A stretch of DNA of 64,000 bases from Methanomicrobiales archaeon (GTDB lineage Archaea; Halobacteriota; Methanomicrobia; Methanomicrobiales; JACTUA01), in contig JASEFH010000007.1 in assembly GCA_030019205.1 (NCBI GenBank), forward strand, positions 1 to 64,000, read 5' to 3'. Below the pieces are notes generated by a model. The model searched no databases. It was given only the letters and a program-made list of their open reading frames with translations, and had not been told where the DNA came from. This document shows, piece after piece, positions 923-58,255 of this stretch. Made by a program: the position numbers and the translations under genes. Numbering within the stretch: position 1 is the first letter of the stretch; every line of letters begins with the position of its first letter.

Positions 923-1261
923 CACTTAATAAGGGTCTCATGAGCTCTGTCGAAATCCTCCTCGAGGTTGACGGATTTCTGGTATTCTCGGGGGAGGCCG
1001 GGATCCATGTCGCACTCTCGAGCGATGGGGAGGATTCTGCGGTATCGGTATTCACAATCAAGACCGGCCTATCGCACATTTTCCCCTCACCACATGGTCG
1101 CCCGGGAACCGTCCCTCTGGTGCCGCCCTGCGTCCCCGGCGAGTGTCAAGACGCCTATCCTGTGACCGGGTCATGGTAAATCCAGCGCAGCGCCGCCTCC
1201 AGGGTACCGGGGCTGTCTATCGAAACGGCCTTCACGACGGACCGACAACCAAGCCTGCAGC
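923..1261. other. No supported gene
   Basis: This 339 bp stretch separates the GAF-PAS gene from the decayed kinase region. A 79-codon frame starts at an ATG at 940 behind AATAAGGGTCTC, but its second half is proline-rich and unlike any family I recognise. I see no RNA gene. Confidence 0.4.
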
Positions 1262-7485: not shown

Positions 7486-8138
7486 CTGCAACGGCATCGG
7501 TTTGAAGTTTTTGCGGAAGGGAGGAGGCAGGTACAACCCGGGACAGTTGTCGGCGTTCTTACGCTCCCCTACCATGAAGAATTGGCATACAAGGAGTATA
7601 CGATCCCTGCACCATACGCTGCCGGCTACCGGAGCGCCCGGGAACGGGGATCTCCAAGCCCAATGGGTGCGTAGTATCGGGCTTGGAGAGAAGCAGGCAG
7701 AAGTCCTGGGTGAACGTACCCGGATCGGGTTGAGTCTCTCGCCGAGGGATAGGTTACAGGTCTCTCGGGTATCCCGTTGCCAGGCCTGTCACGCGGGGGT
7801 GAGGGGGGGGACGCACCACCCTCCCCCTGGTGCGATAGGGTTTAGAGAGGGGAAACGAAGATTGGCATCGTCCACGGCCCTGGCGGCCCTTTCGTGGTCG
7901 ATGGGAAGGGATCTTTCGCGGAAACTGAAGCTCTCATGCAGGATAGATGAACCCGTGCACGTCACTGCCACCGTCCTCCTATCGCGCCTATCCCGCATGC
8001 GGTGGGGGAAGCCGGGGATACGGACGAACATCGGCTCTATTGCGTCCGAGGGTCGAGAACGGCAGCGATCCAGATCGCAGAACATTTTTATCTGGAGATG
8101 GTATAGATACTAAACAATATTCCGTATTGGAGGCTGCC
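7486..8138. other. Intergenic region carrying one GC-rich inverted repeat
   Basis: There is no convincing coding frame in about 650 bp. It contains the repeat element at 7785-7839. TATA-like sequence (TTTTTATC, GTATAGATAC) near 8086-8110 probably drives the acetyltransferase at 8139. Confidence 0.4.
7785..7839. repeat. GC-rich intergenic inverted repeat, copy A
   Basis: The element runs from CCTGTCACGC to TGGTGCGATAGG, with a G run (GGGGGTGAGGGGGGGG) facing a C run (CCACCCTCCCCC). The right end GTGCGATAGG is identical to that of copy B, and the left end is a degenerate form of CCTATCGCAC. It lies outside genes, like the other copies at 15001, 52454 and 58020. Confidence 0.6.
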
Positions 8139-14620: not shown

Positions 14621-15000
14621 ATGAAGATACAAAATGGTGGCGCGAAAGTGCCGCTGTATCGCGGCCTGGCAACCCGATCAAAGGGGAGATAGGGCTCCGA
14701 GCGTCCATCTCTCCTGGCTCTCCCCTCTGGTATCGTGCTGCAGCAATAGAGGCATGAGGGAGTATAACCAGAGCAGGCCATCCTCACCCCGTTATTGTAC
14801 GTTGTGGCTTGTCACGGGATCGCACAGACCATCCCCCGTATCATAAGGCTGCATGCAGTACCTCCTCGTGACCCCCTCCCTGAATTGCGATGCGGCCTGT
14901 CATAGGGGAATCGAGAGTTCGGGTTGGCATCCCCGCCCGGAGCAAACCGCCCTGACGCTACCGGCGGCGAGGAGATTCTCTTCGGCTAACCCCTGCAGGA

Positions 15001-15063
15001 CCTATCATACTGGCGGGGTGGGGGTACGGGGGGAGGGGGCCCCCTCCCCCTTCGTGCGATAGG
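15001..15063. repeat. GC-rich intergenic inverted repeat, copy B
   Basis: This is a 63-bp element bounded by CCTATCATAC and GTGCGATAGG. The ends are inverted repeats of each other apart from two positions. The core is a long hairpin: GGGGGAGGGGG meets CCCCCTCCCCC with no spacer. It is the clearest complete copy of the family. Confidence 0.65.
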
Positions 15064-15240
15064 GACGTACGCAGATCGAATGCGGCTCTTCGTATCCCGT
15101 CCCGGCGATCAGGAGACGGGGCCCTCCGTGCCTCCCGCCAGCGCCAATATCCTGAAGCTGGAGGATGTGCCGTTCTGCAGAGTCGGATCCTTTAATCCCT
15201 CCGGCGGCTTTATTCACGTCGGCGGCGTCACTGTACCCCC

Positions 15241-52205: not shown

Positions 52206-52912
52206 GCCGGTGCATTGGTGTGTACACGAATTTAATGGTTCCCGATTTCAAGAGTCTACCGAACACCGTCAACTCCTTATTCTGGATTCCACTCCCCGAT
52301 ATGTGATGGAGAGCAGGACATCCCGATTCGCCATCCTCACTCCTGTGTTATGACAGAGCCCCGGGGATGGTGCAAAGAACCCTTTTCTTCGGGGAAAGGG
52401 TTCAGGTCATGCCTCTTGCAGAAAATTTCGATCCCTGCTTCCCATATACAAGTCCTATCGCACTGATGGGGGGAGGGGGCGCACCCTCCCCCCAACCCCC
52501 CGCCATCACGATAGCCCGTTAAACTATGACGATCTGGATAGGATGACCTGCACGAGACGGACTCTCCCCCGATCGCCCCCACCCCTGCATGCGATAGGGC
52601 CTGTACCAGAGTGACGGGCATCCATTCCAGGAGAAGGGTTTCAGTTCGACCGGGGTCCGAATGCTCATGCATCCCCTCCGCCCTACCGTTTCTCTGACGA
52701 CACTGCTCCAAATATCCGGGCCCACCGTACGGGGAAAGAGCGGATCGAGAGGGATCCCCCTGCCGCCGGTTCCCTGCCGTGTTGGGGACCGTTATGCAAT
52801 CGCCCGCGATCCCCGCGGAATATCCTGTTCCACTCAAAGAGACTTCGAGGATCCCGTGGGCCGATGGGCGGCGGTATTTATGCCTGGAGACGAATCTCTA
52901 TGCAGTTGCAGA
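52206..52912. other. About 700 bp intergenic with repeat copy C and a partial copy
   Basis: The region holds inverted repeat copy C (52454-52515) and a second half-element ending GCATGCGATAGGGC near 52586-52599. No gene is supported. GGTATTTATG near 52873-52882 is a TATA candidate for the RNB gene. Confidence 0.5.
52454..52515. repeat. GC-rich intergenic inverted repeat, copy C
   Basis: CCTATCGCACTGATGGGGGG at the left and CCCCCCGCCATCACGATAG at the right pair as an imperfect inverted repeat. The core GGGGGGAGGGGGCGCACC meets CCCTCCCCCC. This is the copy with the best-preserved left end. Confidence 0.6.
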
Positions 52913-54385
52913 ATGCCTGCGAACGATATCGACCTGGAGGCCATCGCCCGGGACGCGATGGGCCGCTACGGCTTCCTGCCCGAGTTCCCCGAACCCGTCA
53001 TCCATGAGGTCGGCGCCCTCGATGCGCAGTTGCTGAACAGCCAGAACCACGGGCGGGACCTCCGCTCGCTCCTCTGGTCCTCGGTCGACAACATCGACTC
53101 CCTCGACCTCGACCAGCTGGAGTACTGCGAGCCGGGCCCGCACGGCGAGATCCTTGTCAGGGTCGCGATCGCCGATGTCGACCTCTTCATACCGAAGGGC
53201 TGCCCGACGGACCGCCATGCCGCCCACAACGGCACCTCGGTCTACACCGGCGTCCTGACCTTCCCCATGCTCCCCGACCGTCTCAGTAAAGGCATCTCCT
53301 CCCTCCTGCCCGCCCGGGACCGCAGTGCGGTCGTGATCGAGTACGCAGTCCTGCAGAACGGGGATGTCCGCAGCGGCGCCATCTACCGGGCGCTGGTGAA
53401 CAACAAGGCCAAGCTGGTCTACGAGGAGGTCGGGGCCTGGCTGGAAGGGTCCGGCCCGATGCCCGCCGCCGTTCGGGAGATCCCCGGGCTCGCAGAACAG
53501 CTCCTCCTCCAGGATACGGCCGCCCGCCGCATGCGGCGGCGACGCATGGAGCAGGGGGCCCTCGACCTCGAGACCATCGAGGCCGAACCGCGGATGGAGG
53601 ACGGTCGCGTGCGGGACCTCGTCATCCAGCGGGAGAACGCCGCCCGGCACCTGATCGAGGAGTTCATGATCGCCGCGAACGGCGTCATGGTCGCCCGCCT
53701 GGGGGCTGCCGGCGTCCCGATGATCCAGCGGGTCGTGCGCACCCCCAGGTACTGGGAGCGGATCGTGCAGAAGGCGGCGGAGTACGGCTGGACGCTTCCC
53801 GCGAGAGCGGACGTTCGGGCGCTCGCGAAGTTCCTCGACCACAGACGGGACGCCGATCCCGAACGGTTTCCGGATCTCTCCCTGACCATCGTCAAACTGC
53901 TGGGCCCCGGCGAGTACATGGCCCTCGGGCCCGACGAGGACCCGACGGGCCACTTCAGTCTCGCCGTCACCGACTACACCCACGCCACGGCCCCGAACCG
54001 CCGCTACGTGGACGTGATCAACCAGCGGCTGATCAAGGCGGTCCTGGACGATGCACCCCTCCCCTACACGGCCGGCGAACTGGCCGAACAGGCCGCCCGG
54101 CTCACCGGGCGGGAGAAGGCCTCCAAGAAGGTCGAGCGGTTCGTGCGCAAGGCGGCGGCCGCGGTGCTCCTCCGGGACCGCATCGGGGACGTCTTCGAGG
54201 GGCTGGTCACCGGCGCAGCCGAGAAGGGGACATACGTGCGCCTGATCGCGCCGCCCGTCGAAGGGAGGGTGGTGCGGGGCGAGCGCGGGCTGCAGGTGGG
54301 GGACAGGGTCCGCGTCCGCCTGCTCGGAACGGATCCCTGCAACGGCCACATCGACTTCGCCTGCGCCGGGAGGATGGCGGACTGA
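52913..54385 (+). CDS. RNB-domain (RNase II/R-like) ribonuclease
   Basis: The 490-residue protein has an RNB catalytic core. HGEILVRVAIADVDLFIPKGCPTDRHAAHNGTSVYTGVLTFPMLPDRLSKGISSLLPARDRSAVVIEYAVL matches the family's metal-binding and ISSLLP blocks. HLIEEFMIAANGVMVARLG and HFSLAVTDYTHATAPNRRYVDVINQRLIKAVL contain the conserved Y-x-H-x-T-(A/S)-P-(I/N)-R-R-Y-x-D segment. A C-terminal S1-like barrel (GDVFEGLVTGAAEKGTYVRLIAPPVEGRVVRG, VGDRVRVRLLG) binds RNA. N-terminal cold-shock domains are missing, so it is shorter than bacterial RNase II/R. ATG 52913 (MPANDIDLEAIARDAMG) follows a TATA-like GTATTTATG by about 35 bp; ATG 52880 is in frame. Such enzymes are unusual in archaea. Confidence 0.85.
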   Translation: MPANDIDLEAIARDAMGRYGFLPEFPEPVIHEVGALDAQLLNSQNHGRDLRSLLWSSVDNIDSLDLDQLEYCEPGPHGEILVRVAIADVDLFIPKGCPTDRHAAHNGTSVYTGVLTFPMLPDRLSKGISSLLPARDRSAVVIEYAVLQNGDVRSGAIYRALVNNKAKLVYEEVGAWLEGSGPMPAAVREIPGLAEQLLLQDTAARRMRRRRMEQGALDLETIEAEPRMEDGRVRDLVIQRENAARHLIEEFMIAANGVMVARLGAAGVPMIQRVVRTPRYWERIVQKAAEYGWTLPARADVRALAKFLDHRRDADPERFPDLSLTIVKLLGPGEYMALGPDEDPTGHFSLAVTDYTHATAPNRRYVDVINQRLIKAVLDDAPLPYTAGELAEQAARLTGREKASKKVERFVRKAAAAVLLRDRIGDVFEGLVTGAAEKGTYVRLIAPPVEGRVVRGERGLQVGDRVRVRLLGTDPCNGHIDFACAGRMAD

Positions 54386-57594: not shown

Positions 57595-58255
57595 GCGATC
57601 GCTCCGAGACCTCCGGCAATACGAGATAGTTCAGTTCACCGGTGCATCAAATTTGTGTTTGGGGGATCCGCCCGTACCCGGGTGCAGCAGTCAGGACGGC
57701 AGGGCGCCCCGTTCGCCCTGCCCGCAGGACATTCGCAGGAGACGAAGGCGACAGCGTCCCCGTCCCTCGTCACCATCTCCCCCCTCTTCGCGATGGGGCA
57801 ACCGGGAGAATCGATCTCTCGCCGGCCGGGCAGAGAAATCTGGATTGCAGAGGGATCTGCCGCGGGCATGGACGACAAGGATCCATAGCGGAGCCGGGGG
57901 ATCCACCGCTTCCTATGCCTTCGGCGCGATGGAACCGAGCAGGGAAGATGCGGATATTCGAAGAAGCCGGGAGAGGTTGTGCGCACCCGCTCGTCGGGAT
58001 GCGTCCCCGCGTCCGGGAAGCTATCGCAGGCGGGGGTGAGGGCAAGCCCTCACCCCCGCCCTCCCCTGCGGGTTGTCGCACTGCAGGAGGATACCCCAAG
58101 GTGCGATGGCCTGCGCTGTCCTCCCGTGCCCTGATGCGGATCGAACCGTCTGACACCCAGGGGTCCTGCCGATCCTGAGAAGGGCCTGCCTGACCGCGCC
58201 GTGTGCAGCGGGCTGACGACAGGAGCGGCAGCGCGGCTCCGAAAAATGGGCGAAG
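57595..58255. other. Intergenic region with repeat copy D
   Basis: About 660 bp without a supported gene; it contains the inverted repeat element at 58020-58109. Confidence 0.45.
58020..58109. repeat. GC-rich intergenic inverted repeat, copy D
   Basis: The left end GCTATCGCAG and the right end GGTGCGATGG match the family termini. Inside is a perfect 15-bp hairpin: GGCGGGGGTGAGGGC and GCCCTCACCCCCGCC around AA (58029-58060). The element is longer than copies B and C because about 25 bp of extra sequence lies before the right end. Confidence 0.55.

Follow-up and report, generated by a model that had tools for sequence, protein, structure and literature searches.

Dispersed intergenic G/C-tract palindromes in a Methanomicrobiales genome and an IS5-family MITE that carries halves of them

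The DNA stretch analysed here, 64 kb long and referred to below as the window, contains several copies of a palindromic hairpin element (type A), together with part of a longer element (type B) that includes the same decamer, CCTATCGCAC. Type A copies were scored with a covariance model, R1, built from 17 aligned copies; the window scores come from a run with filters off and confined to the window. The features are listed below.

943–1091, plus strand: partial type B element, from the IS5-family MITE left end (AGCTCTGTCGAAATCCTC...) to an internal CCTATCGCAC at 1068–1077 (BLAST with the type B consensus, E=5.4e-28, query positions 2–148).
7784–7839, minus strand: type A palindrome with a degenerate right side (GTGACAGGC); R1 35.3 bits, E=3.4e-6 in the window.
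15000–15063, minus strand: type A palindrome; R1 62.4 bits, E=1e-12 in the window and 4.5e-11 genome-wide; part of the R1 training set.
15015–15050, plus strand: four-G-run motif followed by C5TC5 (GGGGT GGGGG TAC GGGGGGA GGGGG CCCCCTCCCCC), which fits the strict form of a published pattern, rPQS (PMC8044849).
52454–52516, plus strand: type A palindrome, CCTATCGCAC ... TCACGATAGCC; R1 59.9 bits, E=4e-12.
52560–52598, plus strand: second right half (C tracts and GCATGCGATAGG) in the same element array as the copy at 52454, with CCTATCGCAT at 52589–52598 on the minus strand.
58019–58110, no strand assigned: weak divergent member, GCTATCGCAG ... GGTGCGATGGCC; R1 25.7 bits, E=7e-4, in the window only.

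The original prediction had described a family of GC-rich inverted repeats with 10-bp inverted ends, represented in the window by four copies and a partial one. The family itself is borne out: the sequences are present where they had been placed, and they exceed chance in both the window and the genome. Three of the four copies (15001, 52454 and 7785) are members according to R1; the one at 58020, with ends GCTATCGCAG/GGTGCGATGG and an internal hairpin GGCGGGGGTGAGGG/CCCTCACCCCCGCC, is only a weak member and does not appear in the genome-wide R1 listing at E≤1. It is also the only independent copy in the window, because the other three (15000–15063, 52454–52516 and 7784–7839) were among the copies used to build the model. 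The inverted ends exist, but not with an exact 10-mer on each side. Read on the minus strand, the 15000–15063 copy runs from the left end CCTATCGCAC (15063–15054) through the G/C-tract core to the right end GTATGATAGG (15010–15001); in the forward reading, its left end is the inexact decamer CCTATCATAC. The copy at 7785 has the left end GCCTGTCACG, and the right end at 52506 is TCACGATAGC. The partial copy predicted near 52586–52599 turned out to be the second right half (near 52589). A joint R1 match covers 52453–52598 (E=4e-4 in the window), and an equivalent second right half is found after about nine further copies elsewhere in the genome. The exact decamer at 1068, which the original prediction overlooked, belongs to a different and longer element, the IS5-family MITE that begins at 943; the right end of this type B copy is lost or unrecognisable.

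The copy at 52454 adjoins a gene of the RNase II/R family (52661–54385, plus strand). Its closest homologues are found in Methanomicrobiales, and equally similar ones (~60%) in metagenome-assembled genomes of Omnitrophota, Elusimicrobia and Micrarchaeota; the sequence comparison suggests that gene transfer may have taken place. The coding density of the window appears low (~70% with a simple gene finder versus 88% published for M. marisnigri), and its intergenic stretches are long and rich in decayed repeats.

With at most one mismatch allowed, CCTATCGCAC matches the window 12 times versus 4.2 expected, a number reached by none of 100 dinucleotide shuffles of the window. A genome-wide pattern search found 47 exact matches in 2.73 Mb, compared with two for the reversed control. 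These comprise 20 sites within type A hairpins, 12 within type B elements and 15 of neither type, which are degenerate copies or chance matches. R1 located about 50 places in the genome at E below about 0.01. The R1 matches in this genome are partly circular, since the model was trained on its own copies; those in Methanoculleus and in controls are not. For the genome as a whole, our statements are based on searches by pattern, by BLAST and by model, with the stretches around copies inspected directly.

In its fullest form, type A reads CCTATCGCAC-CAN-G6AG5-ATTTGAA-G5AG5-CGCA-C5TC5-spacer-C5AC5-GC-GTRCGATAGCC. The first G tract is missing from many copies, and ATCG/CGAT in the ends is nearly invariant; selection by the model favours copies with good ends and is biased towards conserved ones. 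Some copies form arrays with a period of ~130 bp, in which a second right half follows the first.

None of 50 type A copies lies inside a gene predicted by our simple, home-made finder based on codon usage, although genes cover ~70% of the window. Among the 46 copies with a neighbour on both sides, 27 have tandem flanking genes, 14 convergent and 5 divergent ones; relative to tandem genes, 14 have the same and 13 the opposite orientation, that is, there is no strand bias. This placement bears on the earlier suggestion that the repeats are RNA hairpins. A transcribed hairpin acting as a riboswitch or intrinsic terminator would fit the computed stability of the G/C hairpins and their enrichment between convergent genes, but not the lack of orientation bias or the typical distance of ~300 bp from both neighbouring genes. 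Nor were compensatory changes found in the outer stem of type A, where a C.A mismatch is frequent, or any match to the element in Rfam. Because the ends are conserved in sequence while their changes are uncompensated and the C.A mismatch is common, a role as DNA rather than RNA is favoured, and we consider the transcribed hairpin very unlikely.

The G/C core resembles the repetitive potential G-quadruplex sequences (rPQS) described in Methanomicrobiaceae (Chashchina et al. 2021, PMC8044849). These consist of four G runs, separated by a single base, a loop of 3–5 nt and a single A, followed by a 3' C3TC3 tract, and they fold in vitro as a hairpin, triplex or quadruplex, with an antiparallel triplex among the folds. 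They are interspersed and intergenic, ~300 nt from genes, half of them tail-to-tail and 11% head-to-head, with no strand bias; the main text of the report makes no mention of palindromic ends, inverted repeats or transposons. Here, a canonical G-quadruplex motif on one or both strands is present in 27 of 50 copies from our genome and in all 20 Methanoculleus copies, and a purine-motif intrastrand triplex motif in 22 of 50 and again 20 of 20. None of the window's 704 other intergenic 80-mers contained either motif; of 500 composition-matched shuffles, 15 contained the quadruplex motif and none the triplex motif. The strict rPQS pattern, defined by 1-nt G-run spacers, a central loop allowed to span 3–7 nt and a single A, fits 19 of 20 Methanoculleus copies and 10 of 50 of our own, the other 40 failing the strict form; the only strict match in the window is 15015–15050. 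The C tract that follows the G runs belongs to the strict pattern and can be recognised in most copies. The original prediction knew of no such family. Judged by its sequence, the core is not new and is the rPQS repeat of Methanomicrobiaceae.

Within the order, R1 has matches in 36 of 150 genomes, for the most part Methanoculleus with ~10–23 matches per genome; in a phylum-wide run, 12 of 247 genomes matched, 11 of them Methanomicrobiales. The host genome and Methanoculleus belong to the same order and to different families of our genome set. The Methanoculleus form, GATATCGCC-G5AG4-CTGAC-G4AG6-AGCAT-C6TC4-TGT-C4AC6-GGCGATATCC, is flanked by two distinct arms (X and Y) and agrees with our copies in tract order, in the A opposite A of the outer tracts and in the TATCGC/GCGATA ends. 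In 7 of 20 Methanoculleus copies, the core has an inverted orientation with respect to the arms. Homology of our element to the Methanoculleus rPQS repeats, within a Methanomicrobiales family of dispersed intergenic repeats that form DNA structures, belongs to the explanation that we hold, as a whole, with moderate confidence.

Many species of one Methanoculleus clade carry the element downstream of thrS, where others lack it, and the same is true beside a gene for a RuBisCO-like protein. At nine more M. marisnigri sites, comparison with three relatives revealed shared copies and remodelled intergenic DNA, with no clean empty site. One relative, almost the same as M. marisnigri at the RuBisCO-like locus, has a 38-bp hairpin repeat inserted there in the G tract of an otherwise identical element. 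Since copies are shared at orthologous sites and are remodelled or interrupted there, and since no clean empty site was seen, the Methanoculleus copies appear old and locally unstable rather than visibly moving. Orthologous sites common to a clade could also indicate a vertically kept chromosomal site under selection, for nucleoid organisation, recombination or termination, with the TATCGC palindrome bound by a conserved protein. Such a site would account for ends that stay conserved (ATCG/CGAT nearly invariant) while their pairing is uncompensated, and for the depletion between divergent genes. However, many species of the order lack the element, as do basal Methanoculleus, its copies are often degenerate or broken by insertions, and selection by the model is biased towards conserved ends; we regard a selected site as unlikely, though not negligible.

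Several other repeats were encountered in the relatives. A second short palindromic repeat, TGCGAGTGAAGCGAGCTTGAGCACCGATAGGTGCGAAG (with variants GAGCACC..GGTGCGA), sits within the hairpin G tract downstream of the RuBisCO-like gene in only one of two near-identical genomes of Methanoculleus, as a comparison of locus L336 (genome G053) with L337 (G038) revealed; it also occurs at L297, L292 and L372, and larger composites are found at other sites. In another family of the order, two genomes, G047 (L070, L087–L091) and G037 (L095, L096), contain a multi-copy element that starts with CCTATCGCAC and G tracts (locus positions ~200–450) and ends with a hairpin of variable sequence, GTATGCTTGA..TCATGC, and then TTCTACAGAGC, the IS5-type end; two type B copies of our genome (L005, L025) have the right end in common with it. 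Most pattern matches in relatives are due to chance. The multi-copy CCTATCGCAC of G040 (L057, L077–L083, L086) lies within an IS605-like right end, GGCAAACCAACGACTTTAGTCGTTGGTAGTTGA, and appears unrelated to the hairpins. Carriage by viruses or plasmids was rejected as well: the pattern matched viral contigs exactly only twice, in unrelated sequence, and no plasmid or phage matched the Methanoculleus element.

The original prediction had envisaged REP- or MITE-like elements, possibly mobilised by a transposase. The repeats are indeed dispersed, intergenic, palindromic and multi-copy, and mobilisation holds for the longer, CCTATCGCAC-containing type B, which is a MITE; the hairpin itself has no target duplication. 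Genome BLAST with the type B consensus recovered ~30 copies of ~260 bp with ends GGCTCTGTCGAAATCC / TTCTNCAGAGC. Perfect 9-bp direct repeats flank three of them (GGAGAACTC, CCGGGATCC and CAGTATTTC), and near-perfect ones, with 7–8 of 9 positions identical, flank about seven more, while offset comparisons rarely exceed 5. The same genome harbours IS elements of ~1.0 kb that have GGCTCTGTAGARATCC-type ends and encode an IS5-family transposase scoring above the NCBIfam cut-off; the terminal inverted repeats of type B, GGCTCTGTCGAAATCCTC, compare with the GGCTCTGTAGAGATCCTC-type ends of these elements. The 9-bp duplications and the presence of an IS5-family IS with matching ends identify type B as an IS5-family MITE. 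IS903-group members of the IS5 family likewise generate 9-bp target duplications. Inside type B lie, ~40 bp apart, a type A right half (G tract, C tracts and GTGCGATAG) and a left arm with its end (CCATACAGG-CCTATCGCAC), which suggests that type B captured the segment between two elements of a type A array; its consensus also matches the window weakly at 15030–15065 (E=0.007). The mobilome of the genome is IS-rich and partly decayed: there are 27 matches to DDE_Tnp_1 (IS4/IS5-type) transposases, including loci L239, L240, L246 and L250, and several of the 27 have stops or are truncated on small contigs.

We considered whether the hairpin itself is a MITE, with its TATCGC ends or outer arms serving as transposon termini for a DDE transposase acting in trans. 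Several dispersed copies in our genome carry the flanks CCAATCCAGG / CCTCCAAGGGAGG, the Methanoculleus copies have their distinct X/Y arms, and IS5/IS4-type transposase genes are plentiful. Alignment of long type A flanks with MAFFT yielded noise, and flank conservation was assessed by a profile search and a scan for target duplications. Across 38 copies, the scan gave no signal of direct repeats at any constant type A boundary; no transposase gene lay between inverted CTATCGCAC ends in the loci inspected, and the nine M. marisnigri sites offered no clean empty counterpart in relatives, the insertion-site difference that the original prediction had proposed to look for. A transposing hairpin is an improbable, though not negligible, explanation.

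A further candidate was mobilisation of REP/BIME-type repeats by a RAYT (Y1, HUH) transposase, for which the original prediction had also proposed a search. Short, palindromic, dispersed intergenic repeats clustered in ~130-bp-period arrays would suit it, and the lack of target duplication is as expected of Y1 elements. Yet Y1_Tnp (PF01797) has no match in our genome, whereas control genomes were positive. Methanoculleus does possess Y1 genes, in G013, G018, G099, G154, G135, G151 and, weakly, G123, but the element was not found in those genomes, and the main carriers (G038, G023, G028, G033, G048, G053, G058, G087 and G111) have none. With no Y1 gene in our genome or in the main Methanoculleus carriers, we rejected RAYT mobilisation, which we rate as very improbable.

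The explanation that we favour, with moderate confidence, is an old structural repeat that acts at the level of DNA, has been dispersed partly as a MITE passenger and has its arms kept alike by template switching. It builds on established points, namely dispersal, intergenic placement, motif content and the MITE status of type B. The complete element would comprise an outer arm, a TATCGC-type end, a G tract, a linker, a second G tract, a loop, a C tract, a linker, a second C tract, a GCGATA-type end and an outer arm. Any action of the elements would be at the level of DNA rather than RNA; by analogy with Methanoculleus-type oligonucleotides, for which others demonstrated such folds, the G-rich strand may adopt hairpin pairing, an intrastrand triplex or a G-quadruplex, also in vivo. 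The type B MITE carries element halves and spreads by transposition, as its 9-bp duplications show, and the free hairpins would be mostly old, having probably been dispersed originally as passengers. That the G/C arms stay nearly complementary while the core flips is most likely due to polymerase template switching between inverted arms, which we infer from core inversion together with arm similarity; template switching is known to invert spacers and homogenise arms (PMC8604942). Weighing against this explanation are the strict rPQS pattern in only 10 of 50 own copies, the partial circularity of the own R1 matches, and the failure of any empty site or duplication to reveal spread of free hairpins.

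A bolder proposal, which we put forward as a long shot, is that the palindrome bounded by TATCGC forms an order-wide chromosomal module of its own with a dedicated archaeal binding protein, whose core is actively inverted between the arms and which several unrelated repeat families (hairpin arrays, IS5 MITEs) took up independently. Relative to the main text of PMC8044849, the ends and arms, the further lineage, the MITE link, core inversion, orthologous sharing and the exclusion of Y1 are new; for the conserved outer ends, the wider host range and the small-transposon link, no earlier description was found in the portions of the literature available to us. The rPQS, so far an isolated biophysical curiosity, would thereby become part of a defined genetic element that has ends, arms and relatives and a transposon to carry it. 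It also becomes testable whether the quadruplex/triplex repeats of archaea are sites under selection or by-products of mutation that maintain themselves, a question shared with their bacterial counterparts.

Compared with known systems, the hairpins share with REP/REPIN-RAYT repeats the clustered occurrence of dispersed intergenic palindromes but differ in that the carriers, our genome and the main Methanoculleus ones, have no Y1 transposase. The likeness to IS5-family MITEs, comprising GGCTCTGTCGAAATCC ends, 9-bp duplications and an IS5 transposase with similar ends, is limited to type B, whereas free hairpins have neither such ends nor such duplications. The TMECO intrastrand triplex motif of E. 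coli and its relatives, with C-stem, G-stem, G-stem order (Holder et al. 2015, PMC4666352), is likewise a G/C-rich purine-motif triplex of two G stems and one C stem, intergenic, without strand bias, in many copies and with no reported link to mobile genes. In contrast, our aligned copies have the order G-G-C-C on both strands, so the C-G-G order rule is not followed, and TMECO lacks TATCGC-type ends and has a bacterial host range. The closest counterpart is rPQS, with the same run and loop pattern, C3TC3 tract, intergenic position ~300 nt from genes, tail-to-tail enrichment and absence of strand bias; the Methanoculleus rPQS linkers CTGAC and ACA are those of the Methanoculleus copies analysed here. 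The repeats in our genome differ from rPQS in the TATCGC/GCGATA ends that bound the core, in a second C tract, in the frequent loss of one G tract, in their host, which represents another Methanomicrobiales lineage, and in the carriage of their halves by an IS5 MITE.
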